A stretch of 60,476 nucleotides of DNA from Herpetosiphon giganteus (lineage in GTDB: Bacteria > Chloroflexota > Chloroflexia > Chloroflexales > Herpetosiphonaceae): the NCBI RefSeq assembly GCF_016907925.1, contig NZ_JAFBCZ010000036.1, forward strand, positions 1 through 60,476. Direction: 5' to 3'. Below are positions 2,820 through 45,714 of the stretch, in pieces. Position 1 is the first letter of the stretch. Each line of letters begins with the position of its first letter. Both the position numbers and the translations under genes were made by a program. The notes beneath the pieces were generated by a model that saw only the letters and a list, made by a program, of their open reading frames with translations, was not told the DNA's origin and searched no databases.

Positions 2820-3192
2820 TGACAACTAGCTAGCTATAGTACCGCAAAAAGTCAAAAGTCAGAAGGCAAAAGGCAAAGGATGAAGAAATATCATAGAGCA
2901 TAGGGATCAGGGGTCGGGGATAAGTGATTAAGCTATAGGTTATGGGAAGATAATCAGAAAAATCTGTGCAATCTGTGGCTAAAATAAGTATTCGTGGAAT
3001 TCGTGCAATTCGTGGCTAAAAAGATTGCTTCGCGCTCTTCGCGCCCTTCGCGGTTTCCATCCTTCGTGCTCTTCGTGGATCTGATAACAACAAAGCATAT
3101 TTTAGGGGAACACAGGGGATGAAAACCCCCTGTGTTCCCCGCCTTGAGGCGGGGCGGAGGGGTGGTGATTCCAATGCCCTTTCTAAAATTAT
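2820..3192. repeat. Intergenic repeat block with two-hairpin element
   Basis: No gene is seen in this 400-base gap. It contains AAAAGTCAAAAGTCAG and GGCAAAAGGCAAAGGATGAAG words, ATAGAGCATAGGG, a run of TTCGTGGAATTCGTGCAATTC and CTTCGCGCTCTTCGCGCCC words (about 2990-3082), and then a structured element at 3101-3170. In that element GGGGAACACAGGGG (3105-3118) pairs perfectly with CCCCTGTGTTCCCC (3127-3140), and CCCCGCC pairs with GGCGGGG just after. A second copy of the element occurs on the other strand near 60232-60300. Confidence 0.75.
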
Positions 3193-4074
3193 TTAGCCTC
3201 TGCTTAGTTCATCCTCGATTGGCAGCCAGCGATAGGCCGCACCCTCGGGCACAACATAGCCAAAGCTTGGAGTTGGAAAGTGGCATGGCGCAACCAAGGT
3301 TTTGCCATCACTTACTTGGCCTAAAACCGCCAGCCGCGTGGCATGTGCTTGATCACTATCAACATCCAAACCAGTTGCAAAGCTTGGCTCGAACATTTGA
3401 ATCGGGTTGAAAAATATATCGCCAGCAAGCAACACTCGTTCGCCAGTGCCATGATCAATGACAAGCGCGGTGTGGCCTGGGCTATGGCCTGGGGTAAACC
3501 AAGTTGTGATGCCTTCTGCCAGTTCAAAATCTGCATCAAAAAACTCAAGCCGACCTTGGGCTTCGAGCCATAAAACTTGATCCTGTAAGTAGCCAGCGCG
3601 CTCAGGGCTGTGCTGTTGCATAAAGGCAATCAGGCCTTTTTCTGCTTGGTGCGCCAAATAACGCGCATTCGGAAATCGCGCCTGCAACGTGCCATCGACA
3701 TAATGGGTATTTAAACCAACATGATCAACGTGTAAATGAGTTAGAAAGACGGTATCAATCGCTGCCGGATCAACGCCCAGCAATGCCAATTGGGCTTCAA
3801 GTTGTTGGCTGCTGAGTGGTTGGGTTGGCGCTGGAGCCTTGCCCAAACCAGTATCAACCAAAATCGTGCGCTCTGCTTGTTGAATCAGGTAGCAATGCAC
3901 GCGGCCTAGTAGGGTTTCCGCATTGTAAAACGAGCTGGGATAGCTTTCGCGAACTTTATCCCAAACGTCGCCGTTGACCGGCAGTATTGGCCATGGCGTG
4001 GTGACATCGACGATTGCCGTGATTGTGCTTGGCCCAAGCTGAATTGTGCGATGCTGAAGCGCTGTTGCCATCAA
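3193..4074 (-). CDS. MBL-fold metallo-hydrolase (lactonase/glyoxalase-like)
   Basis: A 293-residue metallo-beta-lactamase-fold enzyme. The metal-binding motif HLHVDH is at 113-118, a second metal histidine is likely in TPGHSPGH (194-201), and LAGD near 216-219 would supply the bridging aspartate. The overall arrangement resembles the N-acyl-homoserine-lactone lactonase/quercetinase-like branch, so a soluble hydrolase acting on a lactone or ester is plausible; the substrate is unknown. It is transcribed divergently from the TetR gene, and its promoter overlaps two TetR-type palindromes, so the two genes probably form a ligand-inducible pair. The start could be either of the first two Met codons. 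Confidence 0.8.
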   Translation of the reverse strand: MMATALQHRTIQLGPSTITAIVDVTTPWPILPVNGDVWDKVRESYPSSFYNAETLLGRVHCYLIQQAERTILVDTGLGKAPAPTQPLSSQQLEAQLALLGVDPAAIDTVFLTHLHVDHVGLNTHYVDGTLQARFPNARYLAHQAEKGLIAFMQQHSPERAGYLQDQVLWLEAQGRLEFFDADFELAEGITTWFTPGHSPGHTALVIDHGTGERVLLAGDIFFNPIQMFEPSFATGLDVDSDQAHATRLAVLGQVSDGKTLVAPCHFPTPSFGYVVPEGAAYRWLPIEDELSRG

Positions 4075-4096
4075 TGACTCCTTGCTTTTGTTGGTA

Positions 4097-39000: not shown

Positions 39001-40518
39001 CTGCATGTCAAGCCGCTGCGCATGAACGATATTTATCGCGATTGGGCCTTGCACCCCGATTTGGTTGAGCCGCCAATTCCGACCAATTCTGGTTTTATGC
39101 ACTCGTGGCTGAGCGTGCCGCTGATTGCTTCGGCCCAGCCTTTGGGTGTGCTGGCAGTGCGGGCAACGCGGCCAGCAGCCTTTGGGCCAAGCGACGAGCA
39201 ATTTTTGTTTAATGTTGGGCGACAACTAGCCTTGAGTGTGCGCAACGCCCGCTTGTATGCAGCTGAACAAACTGCCCACCGCACCGCCGAAACCATGCGC
39301 GAAATTGCCCGCGTGCTCAACACAACCTTTAATCCCGATGAAGTGCTCGATTTGATTTTGCGTGAATTGCGCAAAGTTATTACCTTCGATTCGACTTCGG
39401 TGATGTTGCCATCGAATAATTTGTTGCGGATTGTCGCGCGCCAAGCCCAAGATGAGCAATTGGCGGTTGAATGGCGCGAATTGACCTTCCCGCTTGATCT
39501 GAGCAGTGGCGCTGGACGGGTGATGTTGAGCGGCAAGCCGTTGGTGGTTCCCGATACGGTTAGCGACCCGCAATGGACGCGCTCGCCGATGCCCAGCGTC
39601 GTGCGCTCGTGGATTGGCGTGCCCTTGATTAGCAAAGGGGTTGTGTTGGGTGTGCTGAATATTAATTCGTTACAGCCCAATGCTTTTACCCAAGGCGATA
39701 CCGAATTGGCCATGACTTTTGCTAATCAAGCAGCAACCGCACTTGAGCATGCGCGCTTGTATCAAGAATCGGTAACGCGGGTTGAGCAAGAATTAGAGAT
39801 TGCGCGTCAAATTCAGAGCAACTTGTTTCCGCGGAGTTTGCCGGTGGCCCACGGCGTGGAGTTGGCAGCCGTCTGTTTGCCAGCCCGCGAAACTGGCGGC
39901 GATTTCTACGAAGTAACCGAGTTACGCGATGGCCGCTGGGCCTTGATGGTCGGCGACGCTTCAGGCAAGAGCATTCCAGGCGCGATGTTGATGGCGGTGG
40001 CACGTTCGATTGTGCGCTCGGAAGCGTGGGATCACGAAACGCCGCAAATCGTCATGCAAGAAACCAATCGCTGGGTTACGATGGATATTCCGCGCCATAC
40101 CTTTGTGGCCTTGGCCTATGCGACCTTTGATATAGGCGATAAAAAGTTGGCTTTGGCGAATGCAGGCCAGCTTGATCCAATTATTCGGCGCGCGAATGGC
40201 GATTTGGTCTATGCAACCGCGCCCGGCCCGCACTTTCCGCTGGGAATTATGGCCAACACGCCCTACGAAACCGCCAGCTATCAGCTTGAGCCAAACGATA
40301 TGGTGTTGTTCTATACCGATGGCGTGGTTGAATCGAAGAATAACACAGGTGATATGTGGGGCTTTGAGCGCTTCGAGGAGTTGCTGCGCCAACACGAGCA
40401 TAGCCTAACCAGCGCTGAATGGGTTGATTTGGTGATTAACGAAATCAACCAATTTATCGGCGATCATCCCCAACACGACGATATTACGCTGGTGGCGCTC
40501 AAAGTTGCTGGTGCTTAA
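36076..40518 (+). CDS. Seven-GAF PP2C (SpoIIE-type) phosphatase
   Basis: A 1480-residue cytosolic signalling protein without membrane segments. An N-terminal coiled coil (RVEALEAERHQTQRALDALYR) is followed by seven GAF-type domains ending near residues 185, 360, 538, 715, 888, 1061 and 1228, several joined by the same linker QRERQLAELNAL. GAFs 3 to 6 are highly alike, indicating internal duplication. The C-terminus (about 1241-1480) is a PP2C/RsbU-like phosphatase with RQIQSNLFPRSLP, ARETGGDFYEV, MVGDASGKSIPGAMLMA and HDDITLVALK, matching the metal-binding Asp positions. Such proteins dephosphorylate STAS proteins; two STAS proteins occur in the window. The start is uncertain: the ATG at 36076 has no clear ribosome site. 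Confidence 0.88.
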   Translation: MTQRTRKPTLKSRVEALEAERHQTQRALDALYRIGLACRGQQDSFELLRTIYQELQTVWKFDACFIALSDQYDDSAYRIAMLVDEGVIEFSEHDPIGPLTGYLIRQRQPLLFRDLTTERESIGLPRLLQFGSDKLSRGWMGVPLVIGTSALGVISLQSYTVGAFDEADLDLLTRIANSMAVALENALLSHRQAELTGSLERQIELRNADLFVISDIAAMLTQQLPLTEMFGLALDFMLELMHLDAGVVCSLNANELQPIVQRGLPNGSLPESFVALDSIFGIAISSNSAIVDHQSQSKYWQMAQLNHLATTLAIPLRRHETVIGVLLVGQTEQRDFKTEEVELLQVVSNQLALALEHGNILAQQRRQIAELEALSAISAATVRALNLSTLLHQLNDAIRSFLPVDVFYMAIYDPERQLLTDSIAIEDDNEATYLSEEAMPRKGSFTDWVLSKCEPLFLRHVSRDIRHYPTIIRRTIKGAPSESWLGVPMLDANRRPLGVIAIQNYQPYAFSDRDRFFLQSVASQVSLHVLNVQLYQQRERQLAELNALQRISSLLGSTLEIEAMLRAIDAVLTEFLHIDGFFVMLNQPKTHMVEAVYALNREGEGDFRWMIGLIPPEHTPTWEVLHTRKPLRFGDISQETSTAVAPEDNNVRISSERTKAWLGVPLNDQTTNVIGLIAIQSFQANVFSTRDEQFMAQLGQQLTLAIQNARLFAQRERQLNELNTLKLVGELLNRTMDIHEMFRGLNPLLTSFLKIDGFYILLNNPKTYVIEDLCVVERGELLDYGSMVGTSLPPNTPTAWILRNAKALRFNNTVTDIPTLYPELKTVQVNDEVALSWLGTPLINHRGEVLGAITTQSMSASHFSESDEQFMLQVAHQLGLAIQNARSFAQRERQLAELDAQQRITQLVTSTLDLYEMLRSLDLVLRSFLNADAFQVVIGSADRVETAVVLEEGHEVQTAVIGHPLPDGSLTRWTYLHVKPLRMNDIYRDWALHPDLVEPPIPTNSGFMHSWLSVPLIASAQPLGVLAVRATRPAAFGPSDEQFLFNVGRQLALSVRNARLYAAEQTAHRTAETMREIARVLNTTFNPDEVLDLILRELRKVITFDSTSVMLPSNNLLRIVARQAQDEQLAVEWRELTFPLDLSSGAGRVMLSGKPLVVPDTVSDPQWTRSPMPSVVRSWIGVPLISKGVVLGVLNINSLQPNAFTQGDTELAMTFANQAATALEHARLYQESVTRVEQELEIARQIQSNLFPRSLPVAHGVELAAVCLPARETGGDFYEVTELRDGRWALMVGDASGKSIPGAMLMAVARSIVRSEAWDHETPQIVMQETNRWVTMDIPRHTFVALAYATFDIGDKKLALANAGQLDPIIRRANGDLVYATAPGPHFPLGIMANTPYETASYQLEPNDMVLFYTDGVVESKNNTGDMWGFERFEELLRQHEHSLTSAEWVDLVINEINQFIGDHPQHDDITLVALKVAGA

Positions 40519-42812
40519 TTATGGTCGGGCATGGTGATGGTAAAGGTTGTGCCTGATTCTGGATTACTGACCACCCCAATTGTGCCCTCGTGAGCTTCGA
40601 CCGCCAATTTGCAGAAATACAAGCCTAAGCCGGTGCTGCGTTGGCGGGCATATTGCTGCTCGCTTAGCGTCGTAAAGCGATCAAACAGCGAGTCTTGCAA
40701 GGCCTCAGGGATGCCAGGCCCATTATCAATCACTTGGAAATTAATGTTGCCAGCTGTTTGATAGGCAATTAATTTAATTTCGGTCTGGATTGGCGTATGC
40801 TTGATGGCATTTGAAAGCAGATTGCTCAAAACCCGCCGCATCAAATCGCCATCGATCGTCGCATATAGCTCTGCATCTGCCTGAATTGAAATAACTTTGG
40901 CTTCTTGTTCTGCCCACGAACGCAACTCGTTGGCCACATTATTCAAAAGCGGGGCGATTGGCACATGTTCGCGGTTGATGCTCATGTGGCCTTCTTGCAA
41001 GCGCGCTGTATCCAATAAATCGGAAACCAAGCCCACCAACGTGCGCGACGAGCGGCGTGCCCCCTCGACCAACTCGCGTTGGCTCTCAGGCAAGTTTTGG
41101 CGACGCAACAAATCAAGATAATTGATAATTACCGTCAGCGGATTTTTGAGATCGTGGACAACCATCTGATTCATTTGTTCGCGCAATTGCTCGCTGCGCT
41201 GCAATTGTTGGTGCTCGGTTTGTAAGGCGCTATACAAGCGGCTATTGATAATGCCGTTGGCAAGGTGGGCCGCGACCGATTGCAACACGCCTTCGCTGCG
41301 GGCATCGATCTGTTGATCGGCGTTGAGTTGCAAGAACAAAATCCCAATCAACTGGGTGCGGTGTTGTAATGGAATCAAGTAGGCTTGTTGTTGATTGACC
41401 GCTAAGGGCTTGAGTGGGCCGGTAAGCGCGCTGATATAGGGTAAATCGGTGACCGTTAACCATTCCATCGGGAAGGCGCTGAGCGGCAGGCTCAAGGCTT
41501 GGTGCGATGGCTCGCCTTTGATCAAATAATGTTGAGCTTGAATTTGCAAATGCTCTGCATCAAGCAAGCCAACTGCGGCCAAGGCTGGTTGCAGCATATT
41601 GGCCAAACTGGCAACTACGCGGCTGATCAAGGCATCAGCTTCTAATTCGAGCGTCACGGTATAACTGATGTCGACCAAGGCTTGCAAGCGGCGGCTTTGC
41701 TCGCGATCTTGGGCCACCAAGCCGACAGCTTGCTGCAAAAGGTCGAGTTGATCTTCGGCCAAGGCAAATTGTTGGCTGAGTTCGCGGCGCAAACTTGGGC
41801 TGGTGCTGCGGTCGCCTGCTTCAAAGGCATTCAGCAATTGGCTCATGGCGTTCTGAAAGCCTGCTTGTTGGCGTTGCAGCGTGCTTTTGAGCAATAGGCC
41901 CTCGACGGCGCTGGTCAACGAGCCAGTGCGCTCCACGCCGCGAATCACGCCATAGGTAATGGTGCCAATCGCTGCCAGCAGCAGCACGTGATAGCTCCAA
42001 AACGATAATTGCCATAGCTCGCCATACAAGGCAGCCAAGGCAGTTTCGGCCAAGAGAATCGCCGCAATGATAAACGTTGCTAAGGGCAAGGTTGGGTTGG
42101 CTCGCCATTGCTTGGCATAAAACCACGCCGTCCAGCCAAACAAGGCCACCGTAAGCCAAACGATAAACGGAAAGACGTTTGGCGCAAGGCTACGCATTTC
42201 GTTATGCAACGAATGGGGGTTAGCGCTGGTGATTGGTTGCGGCGTGGTAACTGGCACAGGCGCTGTGTCAGCGCTAAGCTGGGTTGGCTGGCTGGTTGGC
42301 GCGGGCGCAGTTTCAGTAATGGTGCTCGGAATATAGGCCATCATCAAGAGCGCATAGCCTACCCACAGCCCAAAGCCAACCAGCATCCAGCGTTGCCACG
42401 AGCGAATTAGGCCTTCTGCAAGCCGTTGGCTCATGCTCAAGGCAAAAATAATCGAGGCCACGAAGAGCGCCAATGGCGTTGACCATTGGGTTGCGACCGA
42501 GGTGTTGCTGAACATTACCCCAGGCGTGGCGATCGCATGCACCAAAAACATTAGCGACATGGCCAAAAAGCCTAAGCCAAGCATTAATGCCCGGCCATCG
42601 CGACGCACTAAGGCTGCCCGAATCATCAAGCCAATCATGCCTAAACCGATCAGCAGGGCAATCGTGACAATCCAAAAATGGCCAGCTGGCGATTGAACCC
42701 GCAGATCGAGCGCAGGAAACAGGCGCAGGATAATCAATAAGGCTGGACCAAGCAGCAGCCCGATGATCAAGCTCCATGCAATGGTTGGTTTTGGCTTGCT
42801 TGCGTGCGCCAT
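40515..42812 (-). CDS. Membrane sensor histidine kinase with GAF domain
   Basis: A 765-residue kinase. Residues 1-300 hold about seven membrane helices, broken by a periplasm-facing Pro/Thr/Ala segment (TETAPAPTSQPTQLSADTAPVPVTTP region, about 165-195). A linker coiled-coil is followed by a GAF-like domain (about 370-525), the dimerisation/phosphoacceptor motif VVHDLKNPLTVIINYLDLLRR, the N-box RVLSNLLSNAIKH, DNGPGIP and STGLGLYFCKLA ATP-binding boxes. No response regulator is adjacent. The stop codon overlaps the stop of the convergent seven-GAF phosphatase gene by four bases. AAGG precedes the ATG. Confidence 0.9.
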   Translation of the reverse strand: MAHASKPKPTIAWSLIIGLLLGPALLIILRLFPALDLRVQSPAGHFWIVTIALLIGLGMIGLMIRAALVRRDGRALMLGLGFLAMSLMFLVHAIATPGVMFSNTSVATQWSTPLALFVASIIFALSMSQRLAEGLIRSWQRWMLVGFGLWVGYALLMMAYIPSTITETAPAPTSQPTQLSADTAPVPVTTPQPITSANPHSLHNEMRSLAPNVFPFIVWLTVALFGWTAWFYAKQWRANPTLPLATFIIAAILLAETALAALYGELWQLSFWSYHVLLLAAIGTITYGVIRGVERTGSLTSAVEGLLLKSTLQRQQAGFQNAMSQLLNAFEAGDRSTSPSLRRELSQQFALAEDQLDLLQQAVGLVAQDREQSRRLQALVDISYTVTLELEADALISRVVASLANMLQPALAAVGLLDAEHLQIQAQHYLIKGEPSHQALSLPLSAFPMEWLTVTDLPYISALTGPLKPLAVNQQQAYLIPLQHRTQLIGILFLQLNADQQIDARSEGVLQSVAAHLANGIINSRLYSALQTEHQQLQRSEQLREQMNQMVVHDLKNPLTVIINYLDLLRRQNLPESQRELVEGARRSSRTLVGLVSDLLDTARLQEGHMSINREHVPIAPLLNNVANELRSWAEQEAKVISIQADAELYATIDGDLMRRVLSNLLSNAIKHTPIQTEIKLIAYQTAGNINFQVIDNGPGIPEALQDSLFDRFTTLSEQQYARQRSTGLGLYFCKLAVEAHEGTIGVVSNPESGTTFTITMPDHN

Positions 42813-43073
42813 AAAAATACCTTGTCTAAAGTCCCTAGCTCATTATAGAGCCAAACGTGGTTGGGCGTACATTACAGTTGCATGATGATCGTTTAAATCA
42901 CGCTTTTGGTTTAACCTTTAGGCGTGATTTTGAGCAATTTAGGATTTTCTAATCTTCATTAAAATGGGTTAGACTACTGTTTATAGCTTGTGGATAAGCA
43001 AGTTTTGCACCGTTAGAATCTGCTAAATAGCCAACGATTGCAACTCGTTTTTTTAGCTCACTTTCCATAAAAA

Positions 43074-43089
43074 TTACTAGATGTAGTGT
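43074..43089 (+). promoter_or_regulatory. NrdR box candidate 1
   Basis: TTACTAGATGTAGTGT matches 12 of 16 positions of the recalled NrdR-box consensus ACACTATATATAGTGT. It ends at the first base of the -35 hexamer. Its partner lies 32 bp away centre to centre. Confidence 0.6.
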
Positions 43090-43117
43090 TGACAGCTAAA
43101 AAGACATACTATATATT
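43089..43117 (+). promoter_or_regulatory. Promoter upstream of the ribonucleotide reductase
   Basis: TTGACA (43089-43094), 17 bases, TATATT (43112-43117): a consensus-like promoter with expected start near 43124. It reads toward nrdJ, whose start codon is some 320 bases further on. Confidence 0.7.
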
Positions 43118-43121
43118 GGAT
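43106..43121 (+). promoter_or_regulatory. NrdR box candidate 2
   Basis: ATACTATATATTGGAT matches 12 of 16 positions of the NrdR-box consensus and overlaps the -10 hexamer. The 16-base gap to box 1 gives the three-helical-turn spacing known for NrdR box pairs. Confidence 0.6.
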
Positions 43122-43174
43122 TGCACAAGCTTCCTAGCTTTCAACAAAGCACCCTTTACAATTGAGCTTTACCC

Positions 43175-43205
43175 ATGCGTTACATTGCGTAACGCATCTT
43201 TTTTT
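43175..43205 (+). terminator. First intrinsic terminator in the nrdJ leader
   Basis: ATGCGTTAC / GTAACGCAT perfect 9-bp stem, loop ATTGC, then CTTTTTTT. No gene on this strand ends upstream of it. Confidence 0.8.
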
Positions 43206-43214
43206 GAGTTTCTA

Positions 43215-43253
43215 CAGTAAGCAAGAGTATTCATCTTTTGCTTGCTGTTTTTT
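43215..43253 (+). terminator. Second intrinsic terminator in the nrdJ leader
   Basis: CAGTAAGCAAGAG pairs with CTTTTGCTTGCTG (13 bp with two G-U pairs), loop TATTCAT, followed by six T. Confidence 0.8.
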
Positions 43254-43446
43254 AATGGGAAGGCTCAATCGCTAGGTATTCATGGTTGCGAATTAATGCG
43301 GCCACTATTAATGGATTGCTCTGCGCCTCTGCGTTAAATGCACACGCACCCAATCGAAAAAATCTTGTAATTGCGCTTGTAATCGCCGATTGATTGCACG
43401 CTTAATTTTTTGTTCTCATTTTTTGGATGTTTGAAAGGACTTGGTT

Positions 43447-45714
43447 ATGACGGAACAGGTCACCTTGACCCCGCTCGATGACCGCCAAGTAACGCCGCCA
43501 GCCACGATTATCAAGCGTGATGGTCGTGAAGTGGCTTTTGATGTAGCCCGCATTGAACGAGCCTTAACCCGCTGTTTTGCTGGTTTAGGCCGTCAACCAC
43601 ATATTACCGTTGGCGAATTGGCCCAACGGGTGGTCAATATTTTGGCAGCTAAATATACCACCACCCCAACTGTCGAAGCCGTGCAAGATACGGTTGAGGT
43701 GATGTTGCAAGCTGCTGGCGAGTTTGATGCCGCCAAGAGCTATATTCTCTATCGGGCTGAACATGCCAAAAAGCGTGAACAACGACCTGTGCCTGAAGCG
43801 ATTCGCCATGCCTTTGCCGAATCAGACCAATACTTTCCCTCGCCATTGCAAAAATTCCAATTCTTCGATAAGTATTCGCGCTTCGATTACGATTTGGGCC
43901 GCCGCGAAACTTGGATCGAAACCGTCGATCGCTCGGTGAATTTCTTGCGCGAAATTTCCGATAATAAGCTTGCTGACGCTGACTACAATCGGGTGCGCCA
44001 AGCGATTCTCGAAATGCGCGCCATGCCATCGATGCGCTTGTTGGCGATGGCTGGGCCTGCTGCTCGCCGCAACAATATTGCGATTTACAACTGCTCGTAT
44101 TTGCCAGTCGATAGCATCGACTCATTTGTCGAGGCTTTGATTATTTCGATGAGCGGTTGTGGCGTGGGCTTCTCAGTCGAACACAAGTACATCGAGCAAT
44201 TCCCACGGGTCAAGCGTCAATCTGGCGCGCCTGCCACCCAATATGTCGTCGAAGATTCAGCTGAGGGCTGGGCCGACGCGCTACGCTTTGGCTTGCAAAC
44301 CTGGTTCGATGGCAACGATGTCAGTTTTGATCTTTCGCAGTTGCGACCTGCTGGCGCACCCTTGCGGATCAAAGGTGGCCGTGCTTCAGGGCCTGAGCCG
44401 TTCCGCCAGATGCTCGATTTTGCCCGCTCACGGGTTTTGGCGCGCCAAGGCTCGTTCCTGCGCTCAATCGATGCTCACGACATTATGTGCTCGGTTGGCA
44501 ATGCTGCGGTCAGTGGTGGGGTCCGCAGAACAGCAATGATCAGTCTGTTCGATTATGATGATCACGATATGCTGACCGCTAAAGATGGCGATTTCGACCG
44601 CGAAAATAGCCAGCGCTGGAATGCCAACAACTCAGCGGTTTGGCCAGCTCGTGGCTTGACCCAACTCGAGATTATTGAGCAAGTTTTGACGATGGTGAAA
44701 TCTGGTCGTGGCGAACCTGGCATTTTTAATCGCCAAAGCGCGATCGATATGCGCCCAGCTCGTCGTAAGCCCGCCGAATTTGGCACGAATCCATGTGGCG
44801 AAATTATTCTGCGGCCTTACCAGTTTTGTAATTTGACGGCAGCGGTTGCTCGCGCCGACGATACCTTTGAAAGCTTGCGCGAAAAAGTCGAAGTTGCCAC
44901 AATTATCGGCACGATCCAATCGATGGCGACCCACTTCCCAGGCTTGCGGCCTCAATGGTCGGAAAATTGCCAAGAAGAACGCTTGCTCGGCGTAGACATC
45001 ACTGGCCAAATGGATAGCACAGTGGCCCAAGATCCAGAAGTGCAGCGCCGTTTGCTCGAAATTGCAATTGAAGTCAATCGCGAGTATGCCGAAAAGTTGG
45101 GCATCAATCAATCGGTGTCGATTACCTGTGTTAAGCCAAGCGGCAACAGCAGCCAACTGCTGGATTGTGCTTCAGGTTTGCACTCACGCTGGGCACCATA
45201 TTACATTCGCAACGTGCGGGTCAGTACGCACTCGCCAATTTACAAAGTGTTGCGTGATGCTGGCGTGCCGATGGACCCTGAAAACGGACAGACCCGTGAT
45301 GATGCAACGACCTGGGTTGTGCACTTCCCAGTCAAAGCGCCAGAAAATGCCATCACGCGCAACAGTCGGGGCGCGATTGAGCAATGTAACTATTGGTTGC
45401 AAAACAAACTCAATTGGACTGAGCACAATCCATCGGTGACGATTACCTACAAGCCCGATGAAGTGATGGAAGTGATGAAGTGGATTTGGGAAAATCGCGA
45501 AGTAATTGGTGGGATGGCCTTCTTGCCATCGTTTGATGCCAATTATGCCCAAATGCCATATGTGGAAATTGGCCGCGAAGAATACGAAAAGCTGGCGGCA
45601 GAATTCCCGCCAATCGACTTCTCGAAAGTCTATCGCTACGAAGAAGAAGATTTGACCACGGCAGCGCAAGAATTGGCCTGTATGTCAGGTGCGTGCGAAA
45701 TCGATTTCCTTTAA
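43447..45714 (+). CDS. nrdJ: Adenosylcobalamin-dependent ribonucleoside-triphosphate reductase with ATP cone
   Basis: A 755-residue class II reductase that makes deoxynucleotides using adenosylcobalamin. Residues 20-110 form an ATP-cone (TIIKRDGREVAFDVARIERAL). The catalytic barrel is of the monomeric Lactobacillus RTPR type: YNCSYLP (redox Cys216), FGTNPCGEIIL (Asn448, radical Cys450, Glu452) and YQFCNLT (redox partner Cys461), VKPSGNSSQLLDCASGLHSRWAPYYIRNVRV. The C-terminal pair Cys745/Cys750 (CMSGAC) can re-reduce the active site. GAAAGGA precedes the ATG at 43447; a TTG six bases earlier is less likely. Upstream are two NrdR-like boxes and two terminators, so transcription is probably repressed by NrdR and perhaps attenuated. 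The start of this gene is 240 bases past the first terminator. Confidence 0.92.
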   Translation: MTEQVTLTPLDDRQVTPPATIIKRDGREVAFDVARIERALTRCFAGLGRQPHITVGELAQRVVNILAAKYTTTPTVEAVQDTVEVMLQAAGEFDAAKSYILYRAEHAKKREQRPVPEAIRHAFAESDQYFPSPLQKFQFFDKYSRFDYDLGRRETWIETVDRSVNFLREISDNKLADADYNRVRQAILEMRAMPSMRLLAMAGPAARRNNIAIYNCSYLPVDSIDSFVEALIISMSGCGVGFSVEHKYIEQFPRVKRQSGAPATQYVVEDSAEGWADALRFGLQTWFDGNDVSFDLSQLRPAGAPLRIKGGRASGPEPFRQMLDFARSRVLARQGSFLRSIDAHDIMCSVGNAAVSGGVRRTAMISLFDYDDHDMLTAKDGDFDRENSQRWNANNSAVWPARGLTQLEIIEQVLTMVKSGRGEPGIFNRQSAIDMRPARRKPAEFGTNPCGEIILRPYQFCNLTAAVARADDTFESLREKVEVATIIGTIQSMATHFPGLRPQWSENCQEERLLGVDITGQMDSTVAQDPEVQRRLLEIAIEVNREYAEKLGINQSVSITCVKPSGNSSQLLDCASGLHSRWAPYYIRNVRVSTHSPIYKVLRDAGVPMDPENGQTRDDATTWVVHFPVKAPENAITRNSRGAIEQCNYWLQNKLNWTEHNPSVTITYKPDEVMEVMKWIWENREVIGGMAFLPSFDANYAQMPYVEIGREEYEKLAAEFPPIDFSKVYRYEEEDLTTAAQELACMSGACEIDFL

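Follow-up and report, generated by a model that had tools for sequence, protein, structure and literature searches.

Serial terminators behind a predicted NrdR-controlled promoter suggest an attenuated nrdJ leader in Herpetosiphon

The window analysed here is a stretch of 60,476 nucleotides of the Herpetosiphon giganteus genome (contig NZ_JAFBCZ010000036.1). Its plus strand carries nrdJ (43447–45714, ATG at 43447), encoding a class II adenosylcobalamin-dependent ribonucleotide reductase of 755 amino acid residues, for which the best model is TIGR02505 (E 1.4e-79, 268 bits, the model cut-off of 340 not being reached). A Shine-Dalgarno-like AAAGGA (43434–43439, plus strand) precedes the start codon and is invariant across the six Herpetosiphon genomes compared (six species, with H. 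aurantiacus DSM 785, H. geysericola and H. llansteffanensis among the congeners), in all of which the nrdJ leader is present. The gene located 5' of nrdJ (40515–42812) is divergent, the final long plus-strand frame stops at 40518, and between this position and nrdJ there are only short plus-strand frames, all inside the divergent gene. A previous inspection made on the letters alone, hereafter the sequence-only reading, had stated that no plus-strand gene ends upstream of the terminators described below, and indeed none is evident.

The same reading had placed a promoter with its start near 43124, and we indeed find there a near-consensus site, P1 (TTGACA-17-TATATT, 43089–43117, plus strand), which has 11 of 12 consensus matches, a predicted +1 at about 43124, and both hexamers identical in the six species. 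A pattern scan together with the six-species comparison indicated a second promoter-like site, P0 (TGGATA-17-TAGAAT, 42991–43019, plus strand), whose -10 hexamer is TATAAT in three congeners. By number such sites are not remarkable, as the pattern scan gave two in 1401 bases (both strands) against a shuffle mean of 2.5; P1 and P0 are the only ones common to all six species among the best three of each.

The promoters of the NrdR regulon have two 16-bp palindromic boxes, approximately 31–33 bp apart, which overlap the RNA polymerase site. Two predicted NrdR boxes, a feature absent from the sequence-only reading, are observed on the plus strand at 43074–43089, touching the -35 hexamer of P1, and at 43106–43121, 32 bp from the former and covering the -10 hexamer. 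This pair has 25 of 32 matches to the consensus, was equalled in none of 300 shuffles of the region and is the only pair with at least 23/32 in the window; the pattern of a single box is uninformative, since it matches the genome 10 times and the reversed control 14 times. The boxes are closer to the consensus in two other Herpetosiphonaceae (L049 and L053). The genome also has nrdR (TIGR00244 above cut-off at C41), on a contig different from that of nrdJ, while the best box pairs upstream of its own nrdA and nrdR reach 17/32 each and are not comparable. Box spacing, overlap with the polymerase site and presence of nrdR thus agree with an NrdR regulon promoter, and the NrdR-type control that had been suggested for this region gains support from the comparison.

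P0 lies in a very conserved block (42989–43056) that also carries T0, a hairpin of five base pairs (AACGA-n7-TCGTT) with a T run (43033–43054, plus strand), whose stem is kept and whose loop varies in the alignment. T0 is absent from the listing of the hairpin scorer at -4 kcal/mol, and it is probably too weak for termination. P0 is overlapped by an exact 9-mer, TGTGGATAA (42989–42997, plus strand), which we take to be a DnaA box and which is kept in the five congeners. Among 34 distinct regions 5' of nrdJ, almost all from Chloroflexota, 10 had a perfect DnaA box within 450 nt (0.18 expected from shuffles) and 15 had a box with one mismatch (3.5 expected); the box of the window itself is just beyond 450 nt and is not counted.

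Between P1 and nrdJ, two tandem terminators had been described, and both are present at those positions on the plus strand: T1 (43175–43205) has a hairpin of nine pairs (43175–43197, dG -10.9 kcal/mol) and seven T at 43199–43205, and T2 (43214–43253) has a hairpin of 14 pairs including G-T (43214–43248, dG -18.4 kcal/mol) and six T up to 43253. The leader holds three such hairpins rather than two, since a further terminator-like element, T3 (43373–43411, plus strand), had been missed; its hairpin (43373–43401) is followed by a T-rich run (43402–43411) and by the sequence TTAATTTTTT, and the element is directly 5' of the Shine-Dalgarno-like site. T1, T2 and T3 each consist of a G-C hairpin and a T run directly after it, and are predicted on this basis to be intrinsic terminators.

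The evidence from a single genome against chance is moderate. In 1401 bases, both strands included, a pattern scan gave three terminator-like sites, two on the plus strand and one on the minus strand (shuffle mean 1.9 in all). When the intergenic region (634 bases) was shuffled 100 times at the dinucleotide level, 42 of the shuffles contained a hairpin reaching -9.5 kcal/mol. Hairpins of -15 kcal/mol or better, as T2, are present in three of 100 shuffles, and two hairpins of -9.5 kcal/mol or better in five of 100, the real intergenic region having three. It is the conservation of T1, T2 and T3 across six species that takes the observation beyond the chance level of one genome, and the feature is therefore not one genome's accident. 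With a terminator scorer at a cut-off of -5, T2 and T3 were listed in all six species and T1 in five; in the remaining one (G002), an A-C mismatch interrupts T1, which is outside the best fold.

In the six-species alignment, 12 of 14 columns of the T1 arms are invariant and none of the five of its loop, and in T2 this is the case for 16 of the 17 columns of the proximal arms and for the whole T run (6/6). The stretch before T1 drifts, with 16 invariant columns in 50. Downstream of T2 there are a conserved block (43254–43282, plus strand; 22 of 29 columns invariant) and a hairpin, H3 (TGGTTGC...GCRRCCA, 43283–43304, plus strand), in which all cells pair in the six species and three pairs vary on one side only, from U-A to U-G. 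In T1, T2 and H3 together, 98.8% of the cells pair, against 25 to 50% with the partners slid, yet only one pair is compensated, so the structure seems to be held mostly through unchanged sequence. The covariation score was matched by 91 of 500 shuffles and the covariation term of the whole-leader consensus fold is +0.15; covariation support across the six sequences is thus thin. In T3, the inner pairs are kept and the outer three are GGG/CCC in four species, GCC/GGC in one (G004) and GCG/CGC in the window, as read by eye from the alignment rows assuming a two-base shift in the internal loop. Further downstream, CTCTGCGCCTCTGCGTTAAA (43319–43338, plus strand) is a copy of a dispersed 20-mer, of which the genome has 229 copies at up to one mismatch (none for the reversed control); some of the copies listed are close together and in opposite orientation.

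A search of the nrdJ leader against Rfam gave nothing above the gathering score of any family; relaxing the limit to E 10 brought up only six matches, all at chance level. In agreement with the previous failure to find a B12 box, the cobalamin riboswitch (RF00174) has no match in this leader. NrdJ RNA (RF03034), an RNA described before nrdJ (PMC8079986, as far as its accessible text goes), is not among the six matches either. A leader peptide finds no support: the six species share no frame of at least five codons that has a Shine-Dalgarno-like word, and an eight-codon frame between T2 and T3, with a weak AGGT ahead of it, is common to three.

We also compared best-fold energies in the six species, blocking the 3' arm of each terminator in an RNA that begins at 43124. 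The losses were 2.0 to 10.6 kcal/mol for T1, 13.0 to 15.9 kcal/mol for T2 and 6.6 to 9.6 kcal/mol for T3, and for none of the three was a set of rival pairings common to the six species, the same new partners being observed only for T2 in two of them (G003 and G005). A riboswitch acting through T1 and T2, as had been contemplated, is not supported, because the stretch before T1 drifts and no rival pairing of the 5' arms is common to the six. In RNAs that begin at 43118 or earlier, GAUUG (43119–43123) pairs with the 5' arm of T3 in all six species. These bases, however, lie 5' of the predicted start, and an RNA begun at 43124 no longer has the pairing, which would concern only transcripts initiated at P0 or further upstream. 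A long-range helix around T1 and T2 (43161–43177 with 43254–43269), present in the window's own best fold, was rejected, as its 5' strand is not kept in the congeners, and a helix between the tail of T2 and the dispersed repeat, present in the consensus fold, is unsupported, as its pairs are invariant except for two that are broken in one species.

Outside the genus, a covariance model comprising T1, T2 and H3 had no match in 41 other nrdJ loci (near-duplicates and most Patescibacteria left out), and T1 and T2 are thus seen only in Herpetosiphon. Other nrdJ leaders have a hairpin and a T run unrelated in sequence (L049, L053 and L056), also visible in L054, where it was not counted by the scorer; six leaders (L017, L018, L019, L039, L059 and L068), four of whose records are named Roseiflexaceae, carry one hairpin with two compensated pairs. 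The leader of L016, named Herpetosiphonaceae, has no hairpin with a T run.

In a first set, with -10 kcal/mol as the threshold, 13 of 28 "other" nrdJ leaders had such a hairpin, where 3.2 were expected and none of 60 shuffled sets came to as many; this set included a Herpetosiphon duplicate (L071), without which the count is 12/27, and some leaders outside Chloroflexales. Control leaders were taken from the same loci and from the window, genes being called as simple reading frames. Before dereplication, hairpins were present in 12/20 nrdJ leaders and 6/38 controls with a divergent upstream gene, and in 4/8 and 15/55 of the codirectional ones. After dereplication, and without L066 (Amesbacteria), the counts were 5/10 against 3/29 for the divergent leaders and 9/17 against 15/73 for all, L015, which is Herpetosiphon, being one of the five and one of the nine. 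With L015 removed they became 4/9 against 3/29 (p 0.041) and 8/16 against 15/73 (p 0.020); for the dereplicated codirectional leaders the difference was not significant (4/7 against 12/44, p 0.13). We regard this test as exploratory, because it was prompted by the same leaders and relies on simple gene calls; it suggests that, outside Herpetosiphon, terminator hairpins of unrelated sequence may be somewhat commoner in nrdJ leaders than in others.

We consider it reasonably probable that the region between P1 and nrdJ is an attenuated 5' leader of this gene, as had been one of the two original suggestions and as the conservation of the predicted terminators in the genus supports. NrdR, bound to the two boxes over P1, would gate initiation, and transcripts from P1 would then meet three putative intrinsic terminators in series, whose hairpins and T runs are conserved. 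Many of these transcripts may end as RNAs of approximately 80, 130 and 290 nt, and nrdJ mRNA would be made only by polymerases that read through. Readthrough may be set by the elongating polymerase and its factors (of the NusA/NusG type, nucleotide supply or an antitermination protein), or the terminators may be a fixed throttle on a strong promoter. These two options seem most likely, rather than an RNA that binds a ligand, because the terminators are the favoured folds and the six species share no rival pairing; since there is also no common short frame, neither a ribosome-coupled switch nor a simple RNA-only switch finds support. A factor acting on the polymerase or a fixed throttle is thus our better guess. 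The data suggest a possible second brake on nrdJ besides NrdR, made from known kinds of parts. Against attenuation, three terminators would cost nrdJ output unless antitermination exists, and no antitermination was found; moreover, T1 fails in G002, the L016 leader has no equivalent hairpin, and covariation is thin.

The other original suggestion was that P1 yields an NrdR-controlled, trans-acting small RNA of approximately 80 or 130 nt, nrdJ mRNA arising by readthrough or otherwise. The strong promoter, the two hairpins with T runs and the stable fold of 43122–43253 (z -4.87, reached by 0 of 200 shuffles) are in keeping with it. Nevertheless, it is the unpaired 5' part, the expected place of a pairing seed, that drifts while the stems are kept, and elsewhere in the genome the model of T1, T2 and H3 matches nothing of weight (the next match has E 4.9). 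This alternative, weakened by that drift, we judge unlikely. Should nrdJ be expressed mainly from an unrecognised promoter after T2, T1 and T2 would stop only transcripts from P1 or P0; a distinct promoter between 43253 and 43447 that supplies all nrdJ mRNA, with no transcript from 43124, was the finding named in the sequence-only reading as refuting its proposal. By motif search, the six species share no sigma-70-like site downstream of T2, where only sites with 7/12 or 8/12 matches were observed, one with 8/12 being common to two species (L050 and L015) and none being present in L057; in addition, the predicted NrdR boxes are on P1, and T3 would mostly remain downstream of such a promoter. 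In favour of such a promoter, the block at 43254–43282 is well conserved, and the consensus applied here may not fit every promoter of the phylum. We give this explanation a small probability, smaller than that of the small RNA.

The conserved part between T2 and T3 may, alternatively, be an undescribed ligand-binding RNA that switches T3, with T1 and T2 as an added throttle. The block and H3 are conserved, T3 adjoins the ribosome site and, when this part is folded alone, the loss of T3 costs only 5.4 to 8.2 kcal/mol and T3 is outside the best fold in G004. However, in RNAs that begin near 43124 the six species have no antiterminator pairing in common, there is no Rfam match, and the block is partly the genome-wide repeat CTCTGCGCCTCTGCGTTAAA. 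We find this the least probable of the explanations, and very unlikely. The 2'-deoxyguanosine riboswitch occurs before ribonucleotide reductase genes and acts by transcription attenuation; the nrdJ leader differs from it in having no Rfam match and no conserved aptamer-like part before T1 and T2.

If terminators are conserved downstream of an NrdR promoter, elongation would be a further stage at which the supply of dNTPs is set. NrdR controls reductase genes at the level of initiation, and its tetramer fits two boxes approximately three helix turns apart, according to the text available for PMC9110341; in the nrdRJ operon of Streptomyces coelicolor, as described there, paired boxes are likewise found on the nrdJ promoter at about that distance. 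The available part of PMC3848588 describes, for Propionibacterium acnes, a cobalamin riboswitch on nrdAB, which has a single box, and paired boxes on nrdRJ; the early termination reported there is that of nrdAB. In the H. giganteus genome, unlike in these actinobacterial operons, nrdJ and nrdR are on different contigs and the serial terminators are in the nrdJ leader. An intrinsic terminator between promoter and gene, in a fast-evolving leader, is also what characterises the premature-terminator attenuators of Naville and Gautheret (2010, PMC2965389), whose main text has no mention of ribonucleotide, nrd, Chloroflexi, Herpetosiphon or cobalamin. RegPrecise, as presented in the accessible text of PMC3840689, has a Chloroflexi collection of five genomes and counts NrdR among the regulators of more than 25 groups, so NrdR sites of nrdJ may be on record there. 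Among the matches listed in a literature search, with subscription journals mostly outside its coverage, no title concerned terminators in a Chloroflexota nrdJ leader, and none of those listed for Herpetosiphon small RNA or for Chloroflexus aurantiacus start sites and RNA-seq concerned a regulatory RNA.

The genome also carries the class I reductase genes nrdAB, preceded by a cobalamin riboswitch and a terminator (L123, 567–814); the riboswitch matches RF00174 with 32.7 bits (cut-off 31.5), and directly 5' of nrdA there is a hairpin (-19.0 kcal/mol) that has a T run. This genome may thus control both reductases partly through termination. A broader and speculative reading, which we hold to be improbable, is that nrdJ of Chloroflexota is controlled by NrdR (dATP/ATP) at initiation and by factor- or NTP-dependent antitermination on serial terminators re-invented in each lineage, both reading the nucleotide state. 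If so, and given the upstream DnaA boxes, signals from the start of replication, the level of dNTPs and the state of elongation would all converge on nrdJ.

Lastly, group I introns are preceded by T and end in G. In three of the six Herpetosiphon species, the nrdJ gene is split at a single site by a stop-containing insertion of approximately 228–230 bp (5347–5576 in L057; the same in L073, of the same species, and in L075 and L076), which falls in the codons of a conserved Asn-Pro-Cys-Gly motif and is near-identical between species. At its junction, as read, a T precedes and the final base is G; it has no match in Rfam at E up to 1, and we regard it as a candidate very small self-splicing intron. 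In H. geysericola, nrdJ has another insertion, of approximately 1.2 kb (L050, about 2854–4075), in which the frame stays open, giving a product of 1164 residues (G002), and which is intein-like.
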